Shown here piece after piece: positions 9,943 through 42,965 of a DNA stretch of 64,000 nucleotides; position 1 is the stretch's first letter; each line of letters starts with the position of its first letter. This stretch comes from Firmicutes bacterium FC7 (lineage in GTDB: Bacteria; Bacillota; Clostridia; Tissierellales; Tissierellaceae). The notes below the pieces were generated by a model. The model did not search any database. It saw nothing but the letters and a program-made list of their open reading frames with translations, and had not been told where the DNA came from. Made by a program: the position numbers and the translations under genes. The DNA lies in the NCBI GenBank assembly GCA_022760735.1, contig JAKELU010000001.1:402774-466773 (forward strand). Direction: 5' to 3'.

Positions 9943-10209
9943 TCATAGTATTGTTTGCAAAATCAAAAGTAATATCACTCCTGGAATGCCTAGCATTCCT
10001 ACTATTACTGCGTTTAGAGGATTTATTATTATATTTAAACCAAAAAGCCCTCCAATAAGATTGAATATGAATAATAGTATTCCACCTAAGATCCCGTTTA
10101 TAATGAGTTTAGGTATAACTTTTAGCGGTATTATCAATAATACTCCTAATATATATAATACAAATAGCGCTGCTAAAAAAGCTAATAAACTAGTCACCGA
10201 TAAATCCAT
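9943..10209 (-). CDS. bofA: Pro-sigma-K processing inhibitor BofA
   Basis: An 88-aa, almost wholly hydrophobic protein with about three membrane segments, ending in LGIPGVILLLILQTIL, the BofA-family signature. In Bacillus it holds the SpoIVFB protease inactive in the mother-cell outer forespore membrane. A GAGGGGAC site lies just before the ATG. It starts the csfB-tmk side of the conserved neighbourhood, but recR, its usual upstream neighbour, lies 51 kb away. Confidence 0.88.
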   Translation of the reverse strand: MDLSVTSLLAFLAALFVLYILGVLLIIPLKVIPKLIINGILGGILLFIFNLIGGLFGLNIIINPLNAVIVGMLGIPGVILLLILQTIL

Positions 10210-30705: not shown

Positions 30706-30865
30706 TTCACCACCACCTTCTTATATAAGAGTATTATCTCAATAAAAAAGTTCAAACAAAAGCTAATTTTTTTGCCTTAGGTAAAAGAAGGGGTGCCTCA
30801 TGCTTAAAGTAACACTTTGAAAGTACAAGAATAACATAATATTAATAATTGATGGAGGGATGATT

Positions 30866-31942
30866 ATGAAAGATATTAATAATCAACCTAGGAATAAACT
30901 GAGCAGAAACGAAATAATTGGTATAGGTCTAGTTATTCTTTCTCTTATAATTTTATTCTTCTCACCAAATTCCCTATCTGACTTAATTGATGTAATAATA
31001 GCTAGGGTTTATCCTGTGGCTATTGAAATCTTCTTAATTAGTAATGTTGGTGTCGCTGTAATCGTAAGCGTTATTGTGGGAAGAATTCTTGAACGTCTAG
31101 GCTTTACAGATGGATTGATTAGAGTTTTTATGCCAATAATGAAATTTCTCAAAATAAACCCTTCTGTTATAATACCTGGTGTATACAACGTGCTTGGTGA
31201 TATAAATGCTGCTGGAAGAATAGCAGGACCTGTATTAATTCAAGCAAAGGCAACAAAAGATGAACAAAAAATGGCAATTGCTACTATGATACAATCACCT
31301 CAATCCTTTGCTACTTTTGTAATTGGCTTAATTGCTTTAAGCAAGTTCGGCATTCCAGCCTTACCTGTAATTCTACTGTCCATTATCGCTCCTTTGGTAG
31401 TTATTCCACTGATTCTTAAATTGACCATTTATAGAGATACTAAAAAGGTAGAATTAGAGGAGCTTCCTAGATTTACACCAAATACACCTTTTCTACAAAC
31501 TTTATTTACTTCTGCAATTGAAGGTACAGAATTGTTACTATTAGTAATAATTCCAGCTATTGCAGCTGTATTCTCCGTAATAGGAGTTTTAGATTATTTT
31601 GGAATTTGGCCTCACATAGAATCAGGATTAACAACCATGTTGAATATTCTTCACATAGAGCCAGCAACAGGTATAGTATCCATCCTTGCCAGTCCAACAT
31701 TAGCAGTGGCTCAATTAATTGATGTAGTTGAAAGCACAGATCCTAGACTTATTGTAGGTTCCTTTGTGCTGGCAAACTCTGGTCTTCCATTATCAGTTAT
31801 ATTTGGTCAAATACCTGCTACGTGGAAACCAATAACTGACTTAACAGAAAAGGAAATATTAAATTCTGCTCTTATAGGTACTGTAATAAGACTAATTACG
31901 GCCTTTCTACTTGCATATTTATTGACACCATTAATTATATAA
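30866..31942 (+). CDS. Nucleoside-recognition (Gate) domain membrane transporter
   Basis: A 358-aa membrane protein with about nine to ten helices. It has two Gate-type repeats: the first around IIPGVYNVLGDINAAGRIAGPVLIQAKATKDEQKMAIATMIQSPQSFATFVIGL, the second around VSILASPTLAVAQLIDVVES. The Gate fold is shared by nucleoside transporters, SpmA/SpmB and YjiH-type proteins. ATG at 30866 has GGAGGG at 6 nt. It is 12 nt upstream of an amidohydrolase gene, so it probably carries that enzyme's substrate or product, which is unknown. Confidence 0.8.
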   Translation: MKDINNQPRNKLSRNEIIGIGLVILSLIILFFSPNSLSDLIDVIIARVYPVAIEIFLISNVGVAVIVSVIVGRILERLGFTDGLIRVFMPIMKFLKINPSVIIPGVYNVLGDINAAGRIAGPVLIQAKATKDEQKMAIATMIQSPQSFATFVIGLIALSKFGIPALPVILLSIIAPLVVIPLILKLTIYRDTKKVELEELPRFTPNTPFLQTLFTSAIEGTELLLLVIIPAIAAVFSVIGVLDYFGIWPHIESGLTTMLNILHIEPATGIVSILASPTLAVAQLIDVVESTDPRLIVGSFVLANSGLPLSVIFGQIPATWKPITDLTEKEILNSALIGTVIRLITAFLLAYLLTPLII

Positions 31943-31954
31943 CGAGGTGATATA

Positions 31955-33178
31955 GTGAAAAATGAAAAGTATCTAATTAGAGCAGGAAAATTGGTAACTG
32001 TTAGCGAGAAGTATGGAACCTTATATGATGGAGCATTCGTAGTACAGGAGGGAAAAATAATTGAAGTAGGTTATTTCCCAATAGTTATAGAAAACTATCC
32101 TGATATAAAAATAATTGATTACAGTGATTATGTAATCACACCTTCCTTAGTAGACTGTCACACTCATGTTTTAGAATATGCTCCTTCAACCATTTATCCT
32201 GTTACCGAAGATACACATTTATTAGGAGGTACAGCCTTAATTCTAAAGGTCTTGTCCTCAGGAATTACTGCTTTAGGTGAGCAGATTTGTGGTCACCCAA
32301 ATGCTAATTATGGTAAAAGCGATTACAGTAAATTAATTGAGAATATGCCGATTGATATTGTCTTTTCCATTTCCACCATTTCAATAGGGCTACCTGAATT
32401 AGTTCACTTTTCAGGTTTAACGGGCTCAAAAATTCTTGATAAGTCATCGCTTATAAGTGACCAAATCATTGAAGGTTTGATTGAATTTAGTGATTATCCA
32501 GGTGAAAATATATTTATAAACGCAACTCCAGCTAATTTTGAGGAAGAATACGTTCCAAAAGCTGGTGAAATTATTTATTCTCAAGATGAATTGATAAAAA
32601 TATCCGAAGCTTTTCATGGGAAAAACAAGAAAATCGGATGTCATGTAGGTGGAAAAGAAGCAATAGATATGGCAATTAACGCCAATTTTAATGTGATCCA
32701 TCATGGACACGGAATTGATGATGAGCAAGTCCAAAAGGTTTTAAATAAAAGCATTATCGTAGTTGCAACACCTTTAGGAGGAACACATTTAACTCCTAAT
32801 AGTCCAGAGGAAATAGTTAATCTTGTAGAAAAAGGTGTTGTTGTAGCAATTTCAACAGATGCATACCTACCTCCTTCAAATAAAGCTTCTTGGCTAAGAT
32901 TTATGGATAATAGCTTAAAGGGCCCAGAGTCCCTAATGTTAATATCCAATCCAACTATGGAAATACTCAGAGAAAATGGTTGGAATGAAAATGACATCTT
33001 AAAGCTTATAACTTTAAATCCAGCAAAGGTGCTACAAAAAGATGATTGTTATGGTAGCATTGAGGTAGGAAAGGATGCAAATTTCTTGGTTTCTAATGGT
33101 ATACCCGGACTTGAAATAACAAATGATGATGATATATTGCAAGTATTCTTTAGAGGCAAAAAAGTAATTAGTAAATAA
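31955..33178 (+). CDS. Amidohydrolase-family metal-dependent hydrolase
   Basis: A 407-aa TIM-barrel amidohydrolase. PSLVDCHTHV carries the first metal HxH, GCHVGGKEA and VIHHGHGI the next His ligands, and VAISTDAY the catalytic Asp. The protein is nearest in general layout to imidazolonepropionase/deaminase relatives but lacks a clear HutI signature, so the substrate is left open. GTG start at 31955 with GAGGTGAT upstream. Co-transcribed with the Gate-domain transporter (12 nt). A palindromic terminator follows. Confidence 0.82.
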   Translation: MKNEKYLIRAGKLVTVSEKYGTLYDGAFVVQEGKIIEVGYFPIVIENYPDIKIIDYSDYVITPSLVDCHTHVLEYAPSTIYPVTEDTHLLGGTALILKVLSSGITALGEQICGHPNANYGKSDYSKLIENMPIDIVFSISTISIGLPELVHFSGLTGSKILDKSSLISDQIIEGLIEFSDYPGENIFINATPANFEEEYVPKAGEIIYSQDELIKISEAFHGKNKKIGCHVGGKEAIDMAINANFNVIHHGHGIDDEQVQKVLNKSIIVVATPLGGTHLTPNSPEEIVNLVEKGVVVAISTDAYLPPSNKASWLRFMDNSLKGPESLMLISNPTMEILRENGWNENDILKLITLNPAKVLQKDDCYGSIEVGKDANFLVSNGIPGLEITNDDDILQVFFRGKKVISK

Positions 33179-35984: not shown

Positions 35985-36908
35985 TTACCCCATTAAATGA
36001 TACTCAAGAATTTGTTCTTTTCTTAATCCTTGTAATCCTAAATAATGATTTAAATTGTTAAGTAAATAATCTAGCTTAACTGGCCCGACTATTTCTGAGC
36101 CTGTTACAGCTACTCCATATCTTTGGGCTTCTAATTTAATTAGTTCATATGCTCTATAAAGAGGTGTTGCAGCACAGTCAAACATATTAATTGAGACTAC
36201 AACTCCATCTCTTTCTGGGAATTTGATACCTACAGCCCTTGTAGTTGAGAATCCACCGCTTGGACCTCTAACAGCCTTAGCTATTGACTTAGCTATACTT
36301 ACATCTTCAGTTGCTAAGAATACATTATATGCAGTTAATCCTTCCATATCAGCAGAAACAATTGTTGCACCATATTTAGGATCTAGTTTCCCATCCACTG
36401 ATAAATCTGGTCTTCTAGCTTCATGGTCAGGATGATTTGGGTCATCCAACAATGCCTTGAGGCCTTCATATTGACCCTGTCTTATATAGGAAATGCTCTT
36501 CTTGTTTTCAGTTCTTGCATTTTGTCCTGAGAAGAATATAGGCACTTGATGTCTTTCGAATAATTCCTTTCCGATCTCTTCTGCTAATTCCTTACATTCA
36601 TCTAAGGTTATATTTGACAATGGGAATAAAGGTATAGTATCTTGAGCACCTATTCTTGGATGTGTACCTTTTTGCTCTCTCATATCAATTAATTCATATG
36701 ATTTAGCAGCCATATCTAGCAAGGCTTCCTTCAATGGCTCTGGTTCACCAATGATGGTTAGTACAGTTCTATTAAAATCATATTCTGGTTCGCAGGAAAC
36801 TAGCTTTACTCCTTCTCTATTCTTAATTGTACCTGATATAACTTCAATTACTTCGGGTCTCCTACCTTCACTGAAATTTGGAACTGCAAGTATATACTTC
36901 TTATCCAT
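35985..36908 (-). CDS. ftcD: Glutamate formimidoyltransferase
   Basis: A 307-aa transferase domain that moves the formimino group between N-formimino-L-glutamate and tetrahydrofolate. The start ILAVPNFSEGRRPEVIE and THPRIGAQDTIPLFPL are diagnostic. It is the transferase-only form; the cyclodeaminase half is a separate gene elsewhere if present. Used in histidine breakdown or purine/glycine fermentation. A textbook -24/-12 promoter lies 48-65 nt upstream and the next gene upstream is a sigma-54 activator. Confidence 0.95.
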   Translation of the reverse strand: MDKKYILAVPNFSEGRRPEVIEVISGTIKNREGVKLVSCEPEYDFNRTVLTIIGEPEPLKEALLDMAAKSYELIDMREQKGTHPRIGAQDTIPLFPLSNITLDECKELAEEIGKELFERHQVPIFFSGQNARTENKKSISYIRQGQYEGLKALLDDPNHPDHEARRPDLSVDGKLDPKYGATIVSADMEGLTAYNVFLATEDVSIAKSIAKAVRGPSGGFSTTRAVGIKFPERDGVVVSINMFDCAATPLYRAYELIKLEAQRYGVAVTGSEIVGPVKLDYLLNNLNHYLGLQGLRKEQILEYHLMG

Positions 36909-36956
36909 TCAAATTCCCCCTTTATCTTTATCCTGATACATTTAATAAATATACAT

Positions 36957-36973
36957 AGCAATATATATGCCAA
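36957..36973 (-). promoter_or_regulatory. Sigma-54 (-24/-12) promoter of ftcD
   Basis: On the minus strand TTGGCATATATATTGCT runs 36973-36957. The GG and GC pairs are 12 nt apart, as in the YTGGCAC-N5-TTGCW consensus. Predicted start is about 36946, giving a leader near 38 nt to the ftcD ATG. A PAS-AAA+ activator gene lies directly upstream. Confidence 0.85.
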
Positions 36974-36981
36974 AAAATTAC

Positions 36982-37018
36982 AAAAGATTAATCAGCATAA
37001 AAGGCCAATTAATCTTTT
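36982..37018 (-). terminator. Hairpin after the sigma-54 activator gene
   Basis: AAAAGATTAAT (36982-36992) pairs with ATTAATCTTTT (37008-37018), loop 15 nt, with T-rich sequence just downstream on the minus strand. Likely the activator gene's terminator; its location 10 nt from the -24 element makes an activator-binding role possible too. Confidence 0.65.
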
Positions 37019-37133
37019 TAAATTGAATTCTATTTTATTATAAGAGGAAATATTTCAAGCATTACTTAAGACTATTCTTAATCCCAGGAAATTGCATAAT
37101 TTTCAAGAGGAATTTTTTCCTTTAAAGAAAGAA

Positions 37134-38537
37134 TTATTTCTTGGCAAATACAAGCTCAACTCCCAATCTTTTTGCCTTCTTCCTCAAAGTACTTACTTCT
37201 AGACCAGTCTTTTGACTTAATTCATGTATATTTTTTACCTTACTCATATAATCTGCTAATAATATTCTCTCATAATCATATATATTTTCTTTAAAGGACT
37301 TCCTATCATCTAATTTATTATTTATTTTATTTCCTATCTCTCCACCTAATATATCGTCGATATCAATTAGGTCGGTTTCAGAAGTTACAACAAGTCTTTC
37401 AATTTCATTTTCCAGTTCACGAACATTGCCTGGCCAGTCATAACTTAGTAGTAGCTTTAATGCCCCAGATGACAATACCTTCTTATAATTGTATTTTGAA
37501 TTTAGCCTTTCCACAAATACTTCAATGAGAGGTAGAATATCTTCCTTTCGCTCTCTTAAAGGCGGTATCCTAATTGGCACTACCCTTAATCTATAGTATA
37601 AATCCTCACGAAAATTCCCTTCTTCCACCATCAGGGATAAGTTCTTATTTGTTGCAGCAATAATCCTGGTATCCACCTGAATATTCTTAGTCCCCCCAAC
37701 TTTTTGAAATACCTTATCCTGAAGTACTCCTAAAAGCTTAACTTGAATTCTCATTGGCAGTTCACCGATTTCATCTAGAAACAAGGTTCCTTTATTAGCA
37801 AGCTGCATTAAACCTATTTTCCCTTCTTTTTTCGCTCCTGTAAAAGCACCTTCCTCATAGCCAAACAACTCTGTTTCTATCAATGATTCAGGTAGAGAGG
37901 AGCAGTCAATTTTTATAAAGGGTCCATTTTTTCTGTTGCTATTTCCATGGATAAACTTGCTTAAAACACCCTTACCTACCCCAGATTCTCCTTCGATTAA
38001 AACAGTAGAATCAACCTTAGCTACTCTTAGAGCCAGGTCCTTGATCTTCTCCATCTTGTTGCTTTTCGACACTATGGAATTATCTTCTTTATCCAATTTA
38101 TTCAGTATATTTAATTCTCTCTGTATCATTACATTGATATTTCTTAATTCATTAAGCTGTAATTTCATATTTTCTAAGCTTGTCCTATCCATTACCGTTA
38201 CTACAACATTAGTTAGTTTCCCATTTTCATAAATAGGCACCCCTTTAGAAAATATGTATTTATTATTAACTCTCTGAGTTTTTGCAACTTTCCTTCCACT
38301 TTCTATGACTTCTAATGCTATGGATTCAGAGTAAACTCCATCGCTAACAAGAATATTCATATCCTTTCCTACAATCCAATTGCTTTCTATCCCTTCTATT
38401 TCTTCACAGGTTTTGTTATAAAGGACGGTAATACCATTAGCATCAACTATATGTACTCCAATGTCTAAAGAATCAAATAGATTCTTAATCAACTCTAGCT
38501 TTAGATATTCACCTAATCTTGAATTTATAGATGCCAT
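37134..38537 (-). CDS. PAS-domain sigma-54-dependent transcriptional activator
   Basis: A 467-aa enhancer-binding protein. An N-terminal PAS domain (about residues 15-120; GVHIVDANGITVLYNKTCEEIEG) senses a signal. The AAA+ domain has GESGVGKGVL, EGAFTGAKKEGKIG (sigma-54 contact loop) and LFLDEIGELP. The C-terminal HTH ends in LSQKTGLEVSTLRKKAKRLG. It most likely activates the -24/-12 promoter of the downstream ftcD. GAGGTGG precedes the ATG. Signal ligand unknown. Confidence 0.92.
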   Translation of the reverse strand: MASINSRLGEYLKLELIKNLFDSLDIGVHIVDANGITVLYNKTCEEIEGIESNWIVGKDMNILVSDGVYSESIALEVIESGRKVAKTQRVNNKYIFSKGVPIYENGKLTNVVVTVMDRTSLENMKLQLNELRNINVMIQRELNILNKLDKEDNSIVSKSNKMEKIKDLALRVAKVDSTVLIEGESGVGKGVLSKFIHGNSNRKNGPFIKIDCSSLPESLIETELFGYEEGAFTGAKKEGKIGLMQLANKGTLFLDEIGELPMRIQVKLLGVLQDKVFQKVGGTKNIQVDTRIIAATNKNLSLMVEEGNFREDLYYRLRVVPIRIPPLRERKEDILPLIEVFVERLNSKYNYKKVLSSGALKLLLSYDWPGNVRELENEIERLVVTSETDLIDIDDILGGEIGNKINNKLDDRKSFKENIYDYERILLADYMSKVKNIHELSQKTGLEVSTLRKKAKRLGVELVFAKK

Positions 38538-38681: not shown

Positions 38682-39224
38682 ATGAGATGTATAACGAAGT
38701 CAGAATTAGAAATTATGAATAGATTTAGATTGCTATGGGAACAGCATAGTGAATGGACAAGAGCATCTATTATAGCAATAGTTTTTGATTTGCCTAATAG
38801 GGAACCAACAGTTAACAGACTATTAAGAAATCCAAAGGACTTTGCTAGGGTCTTTAGAGTTTTCTATGGTCAAAGAATTGCTGATGAATTTGATAGGCTT
38901 TTAACTGAACACCTGGTACTAGCCGCACAGCTAGTTGAAGCAGTTTTAGCAGGTAATACTAGGGAGGCAGAAATAATTAACAATAGATGGTATCAGAATG
39001 CTAGAGATATTGCAAGATTCCTTGCAAGTATAAATCCATTTTGGTCTGAAGAAGAATGGAGAACAATGCTGTTTGAACATCTAGATTTTGTAGCAAGAGA
39101 AGCGACAACTTTAATTAATGGAGAATATCAGGCAAATGTTGACCTTTACGATCCTTTAGAGCTTCAGGCTTTAGAAATGGCGGACATGATGAGTGAAGGT
39201 ATTATTAAACAATTTTTAAAATAA
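38682..39224 (+). CDS. Helical protein of unknown function (clostridial family)
   Basis: A 180-aa soluble, mostly helical protein. Notable segments are RLLWEQHSEWTRASIIAIVFDLP, RLLRNPKDFARVFR, WYQNARDIARFLASINPFWSEEEWRTMLFEHL and a final EMADMMSEGIIKQF. I recall similar proteins in Clostridia, often named acetylglutamate kinase by transfer, but no kinase or nucleotide motif is present, so I do not accept that name. AAAGGTGGAG before the ATG. Alone, with its own terminator. Confidence 0.75.
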   Translation: MRCITKSELEIMNRFRLLWEQHSEWTRASIIAIVFDLPNREPTVNRLLRNPKDFARVFRVFYGQRIADEFDRLLTEHLVLAAQLVEAVLAGNTREAEIINNRWYQNARDIARFLASINPFWSEEEWRTMLFEHLDFVAREATTLINGEYQANVDLYDPLELQALEMADMMSEGIIKQFLK

Positions 39225-40902: not shown

Positions 40903-41652
40903 TTAAAAACCCATCAGTGCAGCTCCTATGGAGCCTGCATATCGTCCTAGAGGACTAGAGATTACCTCTTTACCTAATCTTTCAGATAATAGTTCTACAA
41001 ACGGTTTAATCTCACACAATCCTCCAGTTAAATATATTTTTCCTTTTATTCCATGCTTATAAAGTAAGGTATATACTCTTCCTGTTATGGAATTTATGAC
41101 TCCTCTGGCTATATCTTCTCTAGGTGTTCCTTTTCCTATTAGGCTTATGACCTCTGATTCTGCAAATACAGTACACATGCTTGTAATGCTTATTTCTTTA
41201 CCTTTTAATGCAAGCTCAGCAAGTTCAGGAATGCCTATCGCCAAGGAATTTGCCATTAACTCTAGAAATCTTCCTGTTCCCGCAGCACATTTGTCATTCA
41301 TTGTAAAGTTAGTTACTCTATCATTTTCTACTGTAATTATCTTTGTATCCTGTCCACCAATGTCTATTACAGTACAGTCTTCTCCCAATAGGTAATGGGC
41401 TCCTTTTCCATGACAAGTTATTTCTGTAATAGTTTTATCTGCATATGGAACTGAAACTCTACCATATCCCGTAGCAATAATACGAGAGTTGTCTTTATCA
41501 ATATTCATTTTCTCTAGTTTCTCATATACAATTTTTGATACCTCTACACTGCTCCATCCAGTAGGCATGCTAAAATTTAGAACTAGGTTCTGGTCATTAA
41601 AGACTGATACTTTAGAAGCAGTTGAGCCAATATCAATTCCTATATAATACAT
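40903..41652 (-). CDS. ATP-dependent activase of the 2-hydroxyacyl-CoA dehydratase/double-cubane family
   Basis: A 249-aa ASKHA-fold iron-sulfur ATPase. GIDIGSTASKVSVF is the phosphate-1 loop, IDIGGQDTKII the second. DKCAAGTGRFLE and SITSMCTVFAESEVI give the two cysteines that bind one [4Fe-4S] between the homodimer halves. It hydrolyses ATP to fire single electrons into the partner protein encoded 27 nt upstream. Short length marks the HgdC/DCCP-reductase type. Confidence 0.93.
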   Translation of the reverse strand: MYYIGIDIGSTASKVSVFNDQNLVLNFSMPTGWSSVEVSKIVYEKLEKMNIDKDNSRIIATGYGRVSVPYADKTITEITCHGKGAHYLLGEDCTVIDIGGQDTKIITVENDRVTNFTMNDKCAAGTGRFLELMANSLAIGIPELAELALKGKEISITSMCTVFAESEVISLIGKGTPREDIARGVINSITGRVYTLLYKHGIKGKIYLTGGLCEIKPFVELLSERLGKEVISSPLGRYAGSIGAALMGF

Positions 41653-41678
41653 TTAATCACCTTTAAGCAGAGCTGTTA

Positions 41679-42848
41679 TTAAACTGTTGCTGATTTCTTT
41701 TCAATAGTTTCCAAGAATGCTTCTACTCTTGTCTTAACTTGTCCAGTATCTGAGTCTGAATAATCTGTCTCTATTTGAATAAATGGTAAACCTAGCTCAT
41801 CTTGAACAAAATTCTTTAATGAGAATGATTCTATTGCATAGGTATGGCATGCGACCCATGTTAAGTCTACCACACCATCTACATCATATTCTTCAGCTAA
41901 TCTCTTTATTAAATCGAATCTTCCATTGTTAGGAGTCATACATGAACAAGGTGTTTTTAAATACTTCTCAGCTAAAGCTAATAATGGATCTTTATCTGGG
42001 TCCTCATCAACCATTACATCTAATGGTTTGTATCCTGTACAATTTTCTAGGGCTACAACAGATGCACCTGCCTCTTCTAAAGCCCTTAGTACCTTCTCAG
42101 ATCCTGACCCTATTGGACATCCTGTTAGAAGTATTCTAGGAGCACTTTCATCAAATGCAAATATTCCTTTTTCAATTCTTTCTTCTAATTCTTCTATAAG
42201 CTTTTCGATTAAGCTAATTCCATATTCTTTATCTACATTAAAACCTTTTAACCATTGTGCAAGCATCATATCCATACCTGATAATGGTGCAGGTTTATGT
42301 GCATTTAACTTATGTAATCTTTTCATTGCATCTCTTTCTCTATTCATTAACTTGATTGCATCTCTTAACTTCTCTTCAGTAATCTCTACGCCAAAGGTTT
42401 CTTCCAAATAAGCTTTAAATTTGACCATTTCCTTATGCCAGCTTTCTAAGGAATCTTCTCCTTCAGAAGTTTGAGGCAAATTCATAATATGCATTGGTTT
42501 TATTTTTCCCATTAACTCATACATCTTTTTCTTACCATCGCAGGTAGTTTCAGCTAAAAGAACATCTGAGAAGAAAAAGTACGGACACTTATCAGTAATA
42601 GCAAAGCCATAACTGGATTTTATTAATGGGCATAGGTTTCTTGGTAGTTCCTTTTCTGCATCCTCTATTGGAGCCTGAGCAGTACCACAAAGGGTAACAG
42701 GAATGGCACCGGCAGCAATTGCTATTTCTGAAGGTGAAAACATACAGTACATCCCAACTACTTTTTTCCCTTCTTCATGGGCTTCTTTAACTTTTACTGA
42801 ATTTAGCCCTCTCAATCCTTCTATTTCTTCCATTGTAACTGGTCTCAT
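41679..42848 (-). CDS. Double-cubane-cluster-containing anaerobic reductase (2-hydroxyacyl-CoA dehydratase D family)
   Basis: A 389-aa protein of the HgdB-like fold. Conserved Cys appear in VVGMYCMFSP, RNLCPLIKSSYGFAITDKCPYF, LLAETTCDGKKKMYE, LTGCPIGSGS, ENCTGYKP, KTPCSCMTPNNGR and WVACHTYAI. A single gene paired with an activase, rather than the A/B dehydratase pair, fits the double-cubane ([Fe8S9]) reductase group. Start ATG 42848 with AAAGGAG at 7 nt. Natural substrate of that group is not known. Confidence 0.85.
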   Translation of the reverse strand: MRPVTMEEIEGLRGLNSVKVKEAHEEGKKVVGMYCMFSPSEIAIAAGAIPVTLCGTAQAPIEDAEKELPRNLCPLIKSSYGFAITDKCPYFFFSDVLLAETTCDGKKKMYELMGKIKPMHIMNLPQTSEGEDSLESWHKEMVKFKAYLEETFGVEITEEKLRDAIKLMNRERDAMKRLHKLNAHKPAPLSGMDMMLAQWLKGFNVDKEYGISLIEKLIEELEERIEKGIFAFDESAPRILLTGCPIGSGSEKVLRALEEAGASVVALENCTGYKPLDVMVDEDPDKDPLLALAEKYLKTPCSCMTPNNGRFDLIKRLAEEYDVDGVVDLTWVACHTYAIESFSLKNFVQDELGLPFIQIETDYSDSDTGQVKTRVEAFLETIEKKSATV

Positions 42849-42965
42849 AACATCGCTCCTTTGACTTGTTATTTTAATATCAATTTTAATTTTATGATAA
42901 ATTGGAAGGTTCATCCAATAATTTAAATTTATATTAAAATAAGTCATATAGATAGGATTAATAAC

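Follow-up and report, generated by a model that had tools for sequence, protein, structure and literature searches.

A sigma-54-type circuit probably dedicated to a XauG-type formimidoyltransferase in a Tissierellaceae genome

The window analysed here is a 64,000-nt stretch of Firmicutes bacterium FC7 (Tissierellaceae; assembly GCA_022760735.1, contig JAKELU010000001.1, forward-strand positions 402,774-466,773); its coordinates count from its first letter, and its own genome is labelled G000. On the minus strand, an activator gene is followed by palindromes 1, 2 and 3, a hairpin, a -24/-12 element and a formimidoyltransferase gene, in that order (Table 1). Neither a transporter gene nor another purine gene adjoins the enzyme at the window locus itself. 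Several neighbouring genes recur in G003, a genome of the same genus. A 180-aa protein without any Pfam or NCBIfam match is encoded divergently from the activator gene (38682-39224, plus strand) and occupies the same place in G003, as does a double-cubane-cluster reductase gene (40903-42947, minus strand; NF040772, 532.8 bits), which an activator-ATPase-like gene adjoins. About 3 kb from ftcD, a Gate-domain membrane protein gene adjoins the gene of a 407-aa amidohydrolase (window 30860-33178, plus strand; locus L079, 18683-19909), which has a weak hutI-like match, might be an imidazolone hydrolase and is also close to ftcD in G003.

Table 1. Features of the activator-formimidoyltransferase locus, in window coordinates
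Feature	Position	Strand	Remarks
Sigma-54 activator gene, 467 aa	37134..38537	-	PAS-like N-terminus, AAA+, helix-turn-helix-like C-terminus
Palindrome 1, CAAGAAATAATTCTTT	37128..37143	-	12/16 to GAGGAAWWWWTTCCTC; candidate activator site
Palindrome 2, AAGGAAAAAATTCCTC	37107..37122	-	15/16 to GAGGAAWWWWTTCCTC; candidate activator site
Palindrome 3, CTTGAAATATTTCCTC	37044..37059	-	13/16 to GAGGAAWWWWTTCCTC; candidate activator site
Terminator-like hairpin	36982..37018	-	15-pair stem, then T-rich tail
-24/-12 element TGGCATATATATTGCT	36957..36972	-	12/12; predicted start ~36946
Formimidoyltransferase gene (annotatable as ftcD), 307 aa	35985..36908	-	XauG-type clade

The original prediction placed an AAA+ activator with a GAFTGA motif one gene upstream of ftcD on the same strand, and the encoded protein bears this out: it carries the motifs GESGVGKG (Walker A) and FGYEEGAFTGA, the latter containing the GAFTGA by which such proteins contact sigma-54, and its AAA+ domain scores 225.8 bits with Sigma54_activat. 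The PAS match is weak (19.6 bits, under the Pfam cut-off of 22.6), and the predicted structure shows a PAS-like order of strands and helices over residues ~21-110, where block pLDDT is 74-88 within a model that is poor as a whole (mean 57.9). No PAS chain occurs among the 50 Foldseek matches listed, which reflect the AAA+ domain, and a guess at the ligand from this model was dropped because of its poor quality. The best-scoring named activator model is NF041552 for PrdR, the proline reductase activator, which combines PAS and AAA+ domains; with 404 bits against a cut-off of 795, the window activator is not PrdR.

Activators of this family use ATP hydrolysis to open sigma-54 promoters, acting from binding sites that lie upstream. 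The search for rpoN that had been proposed found one intact gene in the genome (Sigma54_DBD 215.8 bits, in a 455-aa ORF with SRRTVAKYREEM), and the -24/-12 element claimed upstream of ftcD stands, with the proper GG-GC spacing and its end 49 nt before the ATG at 36908. Using the pattern TGGCAYRN4TTGCW, TGGCATATATATTGCT is the sole match without mismatches in the 64-kb window; 37 matches have up to two mismatches, against 25.1 +/- 5.2 in shuffled sequence. The whole genome holds 124 matches with at most one mismatch, of which 100 were listed, and five of those listed are exact. By our reading, four of the five lie within ~1.2 kb of one of seven full-length activator genes. The fifth, on contig C12 of G000 (10023-10038, minus strand), falls within a coding frame and has no activator gene in its vicinity.

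Palindromes 1 and 2 are spaced 21 bp apart, a distance also seen in orthologs, and palindrome 1, the upstream one of the two, reaches into the 3' end of the activator gene. The hairpin between the activator gene and the promoter has a z-score of -4.3. At six of seven same-type Tissierellaceae loci, with stem sequences that differ, z is at or below -2.4, the exception being G026, where the hairpin is not significant (z -1.2); it is also missing at loci L195 and L222, while L087 was left out of this test. A known RNA element in the leader was rejected, no Rfam match reaching the gathering threshold.

An order-wide scan of 249 genomes yielded 15 genes of the activator group in 13 genomes. Eight of them adjoin a window-type transferase gene (some together with fchA or a Gate-type membrane protein) and seven adjoin an agmatinase-like ureohydrolase, six of the latter also with a Gate-type membrane protein. 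Together with L195 and L222 from a named collection, these make up the 17 PAS-activator-group loci compared here; L187, L188 and L204, which correspond to G023, G022 and G026, were each counted once, the L087 promoter was scored allowing for a mis-called start, and the loci with NtrC-type activators (L192, L201, L209, L237, L239) stand outside the 17. The comparison of homologous loci that the original prediction called for came out in its favour: the best -24/-12 match is 12/12 at 11 of the 17 loci, 11/12 at four and 10/12 at two (L222 and L312). None of 42 control loci, which carry the same enzyme and no adjacent activator, reaches 11/12. These controls were hand-picked from 80 loci for purine or xau-type surroundings; of the other 38, ten are activator-linked and 28 fell outside control scoring, some of these 28 having an activator-like gene at a distance of a few genes (L250, L252, L253, L256, L263, L264, L266).

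The palindromes are conserved in much the same way, with a match of at least 13/16 at 15 of the 17 loci and two of 12/16 at each of the other two, against shuffle means at 13/16 of 0.01-0.07 palindromes per locus and a single control locus with a palindrome (1/42). The sister activators linked to ureohydrolase (L085, L086, L087, L088, L312, L313, L314) have the same palindromes and -24/-12 element. Conservation of this kind suggests that the palindromes are likely binding sites of the activator. No palindrome was seen at L201 and L192, two of the loci with NtrC-type activators. By eye, the NtrC-type activators of L192, L237 and L239 adjoin long proteins resembling solute-binding-domain kinases, and these loci have a second transferase copy, a branched-chain-amino-acid-type ABC transporter and -24/-12 matches of 11-12/12.

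Among close relatives, G003 has an activator 83% identical to that of the window, with palindromes, hairpin, 12/12 promoter and transferase gene in the same order, and four genomes of another genus as well as G026 keep the activator and a 12/12 promoter, with the cyclodeaminase gene fchA preceding the transferase gene. The original prediction had also pointed to relatives that keep ftcD and lose the element. Such a loss does occur in G001, of the same genus, but this genome lacks the orthologous activator as well, and its transferase gene is part of a xanthine dehydrogenase/adenine deaminase operon. The loss of both indicates that promoter and activator move as a unit.

By name alone the enzyme would be assigned to glutamate, since it scores 290.8 bits with TIGR02024 (glutamate formimidoyltransferase; cut-off 221.25). 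It is ~40-43% identical to canonical FtcDs (42-43% to both canonical ones of its own genome), and in a maximum-likelihood tree of 85 sequences its clade splits from four canonical FtcDs at 100/100. It does not group with the hut-operon enzymes; transferases within xau clusters (L224-L243 and others) share its clade. The activator-linked members are scattered over this clade, as a group of five including the window enzyme (96/74), L195, L201 with L209, L222, L237 with L239, and L192, which suggests repeated recruitment of activators, several of the forks being weak.

Across 28 genomes of the family, one of which (G015) is 55% complete, FtcD-model scores fall into two bands, and the window type (~280-313 bits) is present in 16, counting a split gene in G021. 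A xanthinase-type amidohydrolase (>700 bits) and a UbiD decarboxylase (>500 bits) occur in exactly the same 16 genomes, and the other 12 have none of the three; the odds of such agreement by chance are ~3e-8, ignoring the relatedness of the genomes. The G021 transferase gene (L080, from 10149 on) is split in two frames, reflecting either disruption of the gene or an error in sequencing.

The surroundings of the gene elsewhere are those of purine breakdown. In relatives without the activator it lies in xanthine dehydrogenase/adenine deaminase operons, and Alkaliphilus-type clusters combine the transferase gene with PucR, a PF04199 hydrolase, an amidohydrolase, an isochorismatase-like protein, a UbiX-like flavoprotein, UbiD, BMC shell proteins, adenine deaminase and a permease. 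To judge from the description in PMC6620236, such a cluster is of the Xau locus type, and its transferase is XauG. On contig C12 (L284, 2485-13485), the window's own genome has what looks like a complete xanthine-utilisation cluster, BMC shell proteins included, with a PucR-type regulator gene of its own and no transferase gene. Nor was a transferase seen in the cluster stretches of G003, G022, G023, G024 and G026, though some of these stretches break off partway through the cluster. A xanthinase gene cluster was described by Tong et al. 2023 (Cell Chem Biol), as cited in PMC12507026, and the accessible part of the Clostridium acidurici genome paper reports no gene for the last specific step of purine fermentation (PMC3519856). 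To judge by clade, neighbourhood and phyletic distribution, the window enzyme is not the FtcD of the histidine pathway, and is most likely a formiminoglycine:tetrahydrofolate formimidoyltransferase.

Taken together, we consider it likely that the locus is a self-contained sigma-54 circuit dedicated to a XauG-type formimidoyltransferase, most likely specific for formiminoglycine, in xanthine fermentation. The dedicated sigma-54 and activator control of ftcD put forward in the original prediction is thus well supported by the rpoN gene and by a promoter, palindromes and, in close relatives, a hairpin that are conserved with the activator. Bound to the palindromes, which overlap or follow the 3' end of its own coding sequence and lie ~105-190 bp upstream of the predicted start, the activator would open the sigma-54 polymerase at the -24/-12 element. 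Transcription of the activator gene is predicted to end at the hairpin, immediately ahead of the promoter, and the enzyme is therefore expected to be made mainly with the activator switched on. The enzyme itself would carry out the final pathway-specific reaction of anaerobic xanthine fermentation.

Could the circuit instead serve histidine breakdown, with a glutamate formimidoyltransferase and an activator that senses formiminoglutamate, urocanate or histidine? The window protein does pass the FtcD model cut-off, and a sigma-54 activator of histidine genes, HiaR (hiaL-hyp-hutH), has been predicted in Clostridium, according to the part of PMC6615313 available to us. However, the genome has two canonical FtcDs besides the distant, separately branching window enzyme, and each of the three formiminotransferase genes is preceded by an activator gene together with a -24/-12 element. 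One canonical gene is on contig C44, in a hut operon of ftcD-hutI-hutU plus a membrane protein gene (some names given by eye) that has an activator of its own and a 12/12 promoter, and the other is in an operon on contig C1 (gltS-ftcD-fchA-hutD-like, again partly named by eye) with an 11/12 promoter and a response-regulator activator, which adjoins a kinase with a solute-binding-like region. Both types of circuit are also present in G003, at 12/12 and 11/12. Urocanase is distributed differently from the window-type enzyme, whose pattern the xanthine genes match exactly: it is found in 23 of the 28 genomes, including 7-8 without the window-type enzyme (G002, G005-G008, G013-G015), and is missing in G001, which has that enzyme. 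A purely histidine reading was rejected because the genome has a hut operon elsewhere that includes a canonical FtcD, and a histidine circuit at the window locus is unlikely.

Still more improbable is a broader role of the activator in purine catabolism, with the xau cluster or other genes also under its control. Co-induction would make sense, given that the xau cluster lies on another contig without a transferase, and the shared palindrome was searched for with at most two mismatches. Yet among the 27 places that this search gave in the genome, only palindrome 2 has a -24/-12 element within 350 bp and none of the other 26 does, so that, within the motif used, a wide regulon in this genome was rejected; the xau cluster, moreover, has its own PucR-type regulator. 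The window palindrome, at 13/16 or better, is also absent from both other ftcD circuits of the genome, on C44 and C1, suggesting separate recognition sites for each activator. Least probable is that the -24/-12 match is fortuitous and that transcription of the gene depends on the housekeeping polymerase or on read-through out of the activator gene. A 12/12 score is reached in three of 1678 single-strand 225-nt stretches of the same genome (a set that includes the window and hut promoters), and one of the five exact genome matches is the intragenic one on C12, so that a single such site could be luck. It is conservation that settles the question, with the element kept at all 17 activator loci and none of the 42 controls at 11/12; in addition, the hairpin with its T tail separates the activator gene from the promoter, and sigma-70-like sites in the region are at chance level (14 vs 12.7).

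As regards the signal, the original prediction had the PAS domain sensing formiminoglutamate, histidine or a purine-derived compound. The histidine and formiminoglutamate part does not hold up well, because the separate hut operon has a canonical FtcD, an activator and a sigma-54-type promoter, and because the window FtcD tracks the anaerobic xanthine pathway; this tracking narrows the choice towards the purine side. HutG-type ureohydrolases act on formiminoglutamate, and the ureohydrolase beside the sister activators, which scores 131.9 bits with the hutG model and higher with agmatinase, favours formimino compounds as the ligand class; guanidino compounds would fit equally well. Our guess for the inducer would be formiminoglycine or a related N-formimino amino acid. 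Only tentatively do we extend this to the whole activator group, which might sense N-formimino or guanidino amino acids such as formiminoglycine and drive either folate transfer (XauG-type) or hydrolysis by the ureohydrolase, with NtrC-type activators recruited separately, so that sigma-54 control would have arisen several times.

Parts of this picture were known earlier. XauG, predicted by Ravcheev and the Thiele group in 2019 (PMC6620236) as part of a microcompartment pathway for xanthine use, is also a formimidoyltransferase tied to a xanthine cluster, which likewise has amidohydrolases, a decarboxylase and shell proteins; in two Bacillus genomes xauG is missing from the cluster. XauG is described inside the cluster, whereas the window gene lies outside the xau cluster and has an apparent sigma-54 promoter, and we matched the two by neighbourhood rather than by alignment to Amet_4586. 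The accessible text of PMC6620236 makes no mention of sigma-54 or of an activator for XauG. Local sigma-54 catabolic circuits in Clostridia are well known: the Clostridiales groups of Nie et al. 2019 (PMC6615313) similarly have a local activator, a -24/-12 element, palindromes and a catabolic operon. Among the 39 activator groups listed there, HiaR (hutH) and DioR (pbuX, ssnA, xdhC and others) touch histidine or purine genes, neither ftcD nor xauG is named in the 39 target lists of Table 1 as available to us, and the targets listed for HiaR and DioR differ from the transferase gene of the window. GcsR of Pseudomonas aeruginosa (PMC4894688) is another enhancer-binding protein, for a glycine-metabolism operon, and differs by its description there in being TyrR-like, from another phylum and with another target. 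No published link of xauG or a formiminoglycine transferase to sigma-54 was found in the open-access papers searched, nor was the joining of a sigma-54 circuit, including its sites, with a XauG-type enzyme, which is what appears to be new here.

The findings link the last specific step in the anaerobic fermentation of purines to a particular gene with a regulator of its own. An orphan activator thereby becomes a testable sensor, possibly for a product of purine breakdown, and the annotation 'ftcD' in Clostridia covers at least two pathways.
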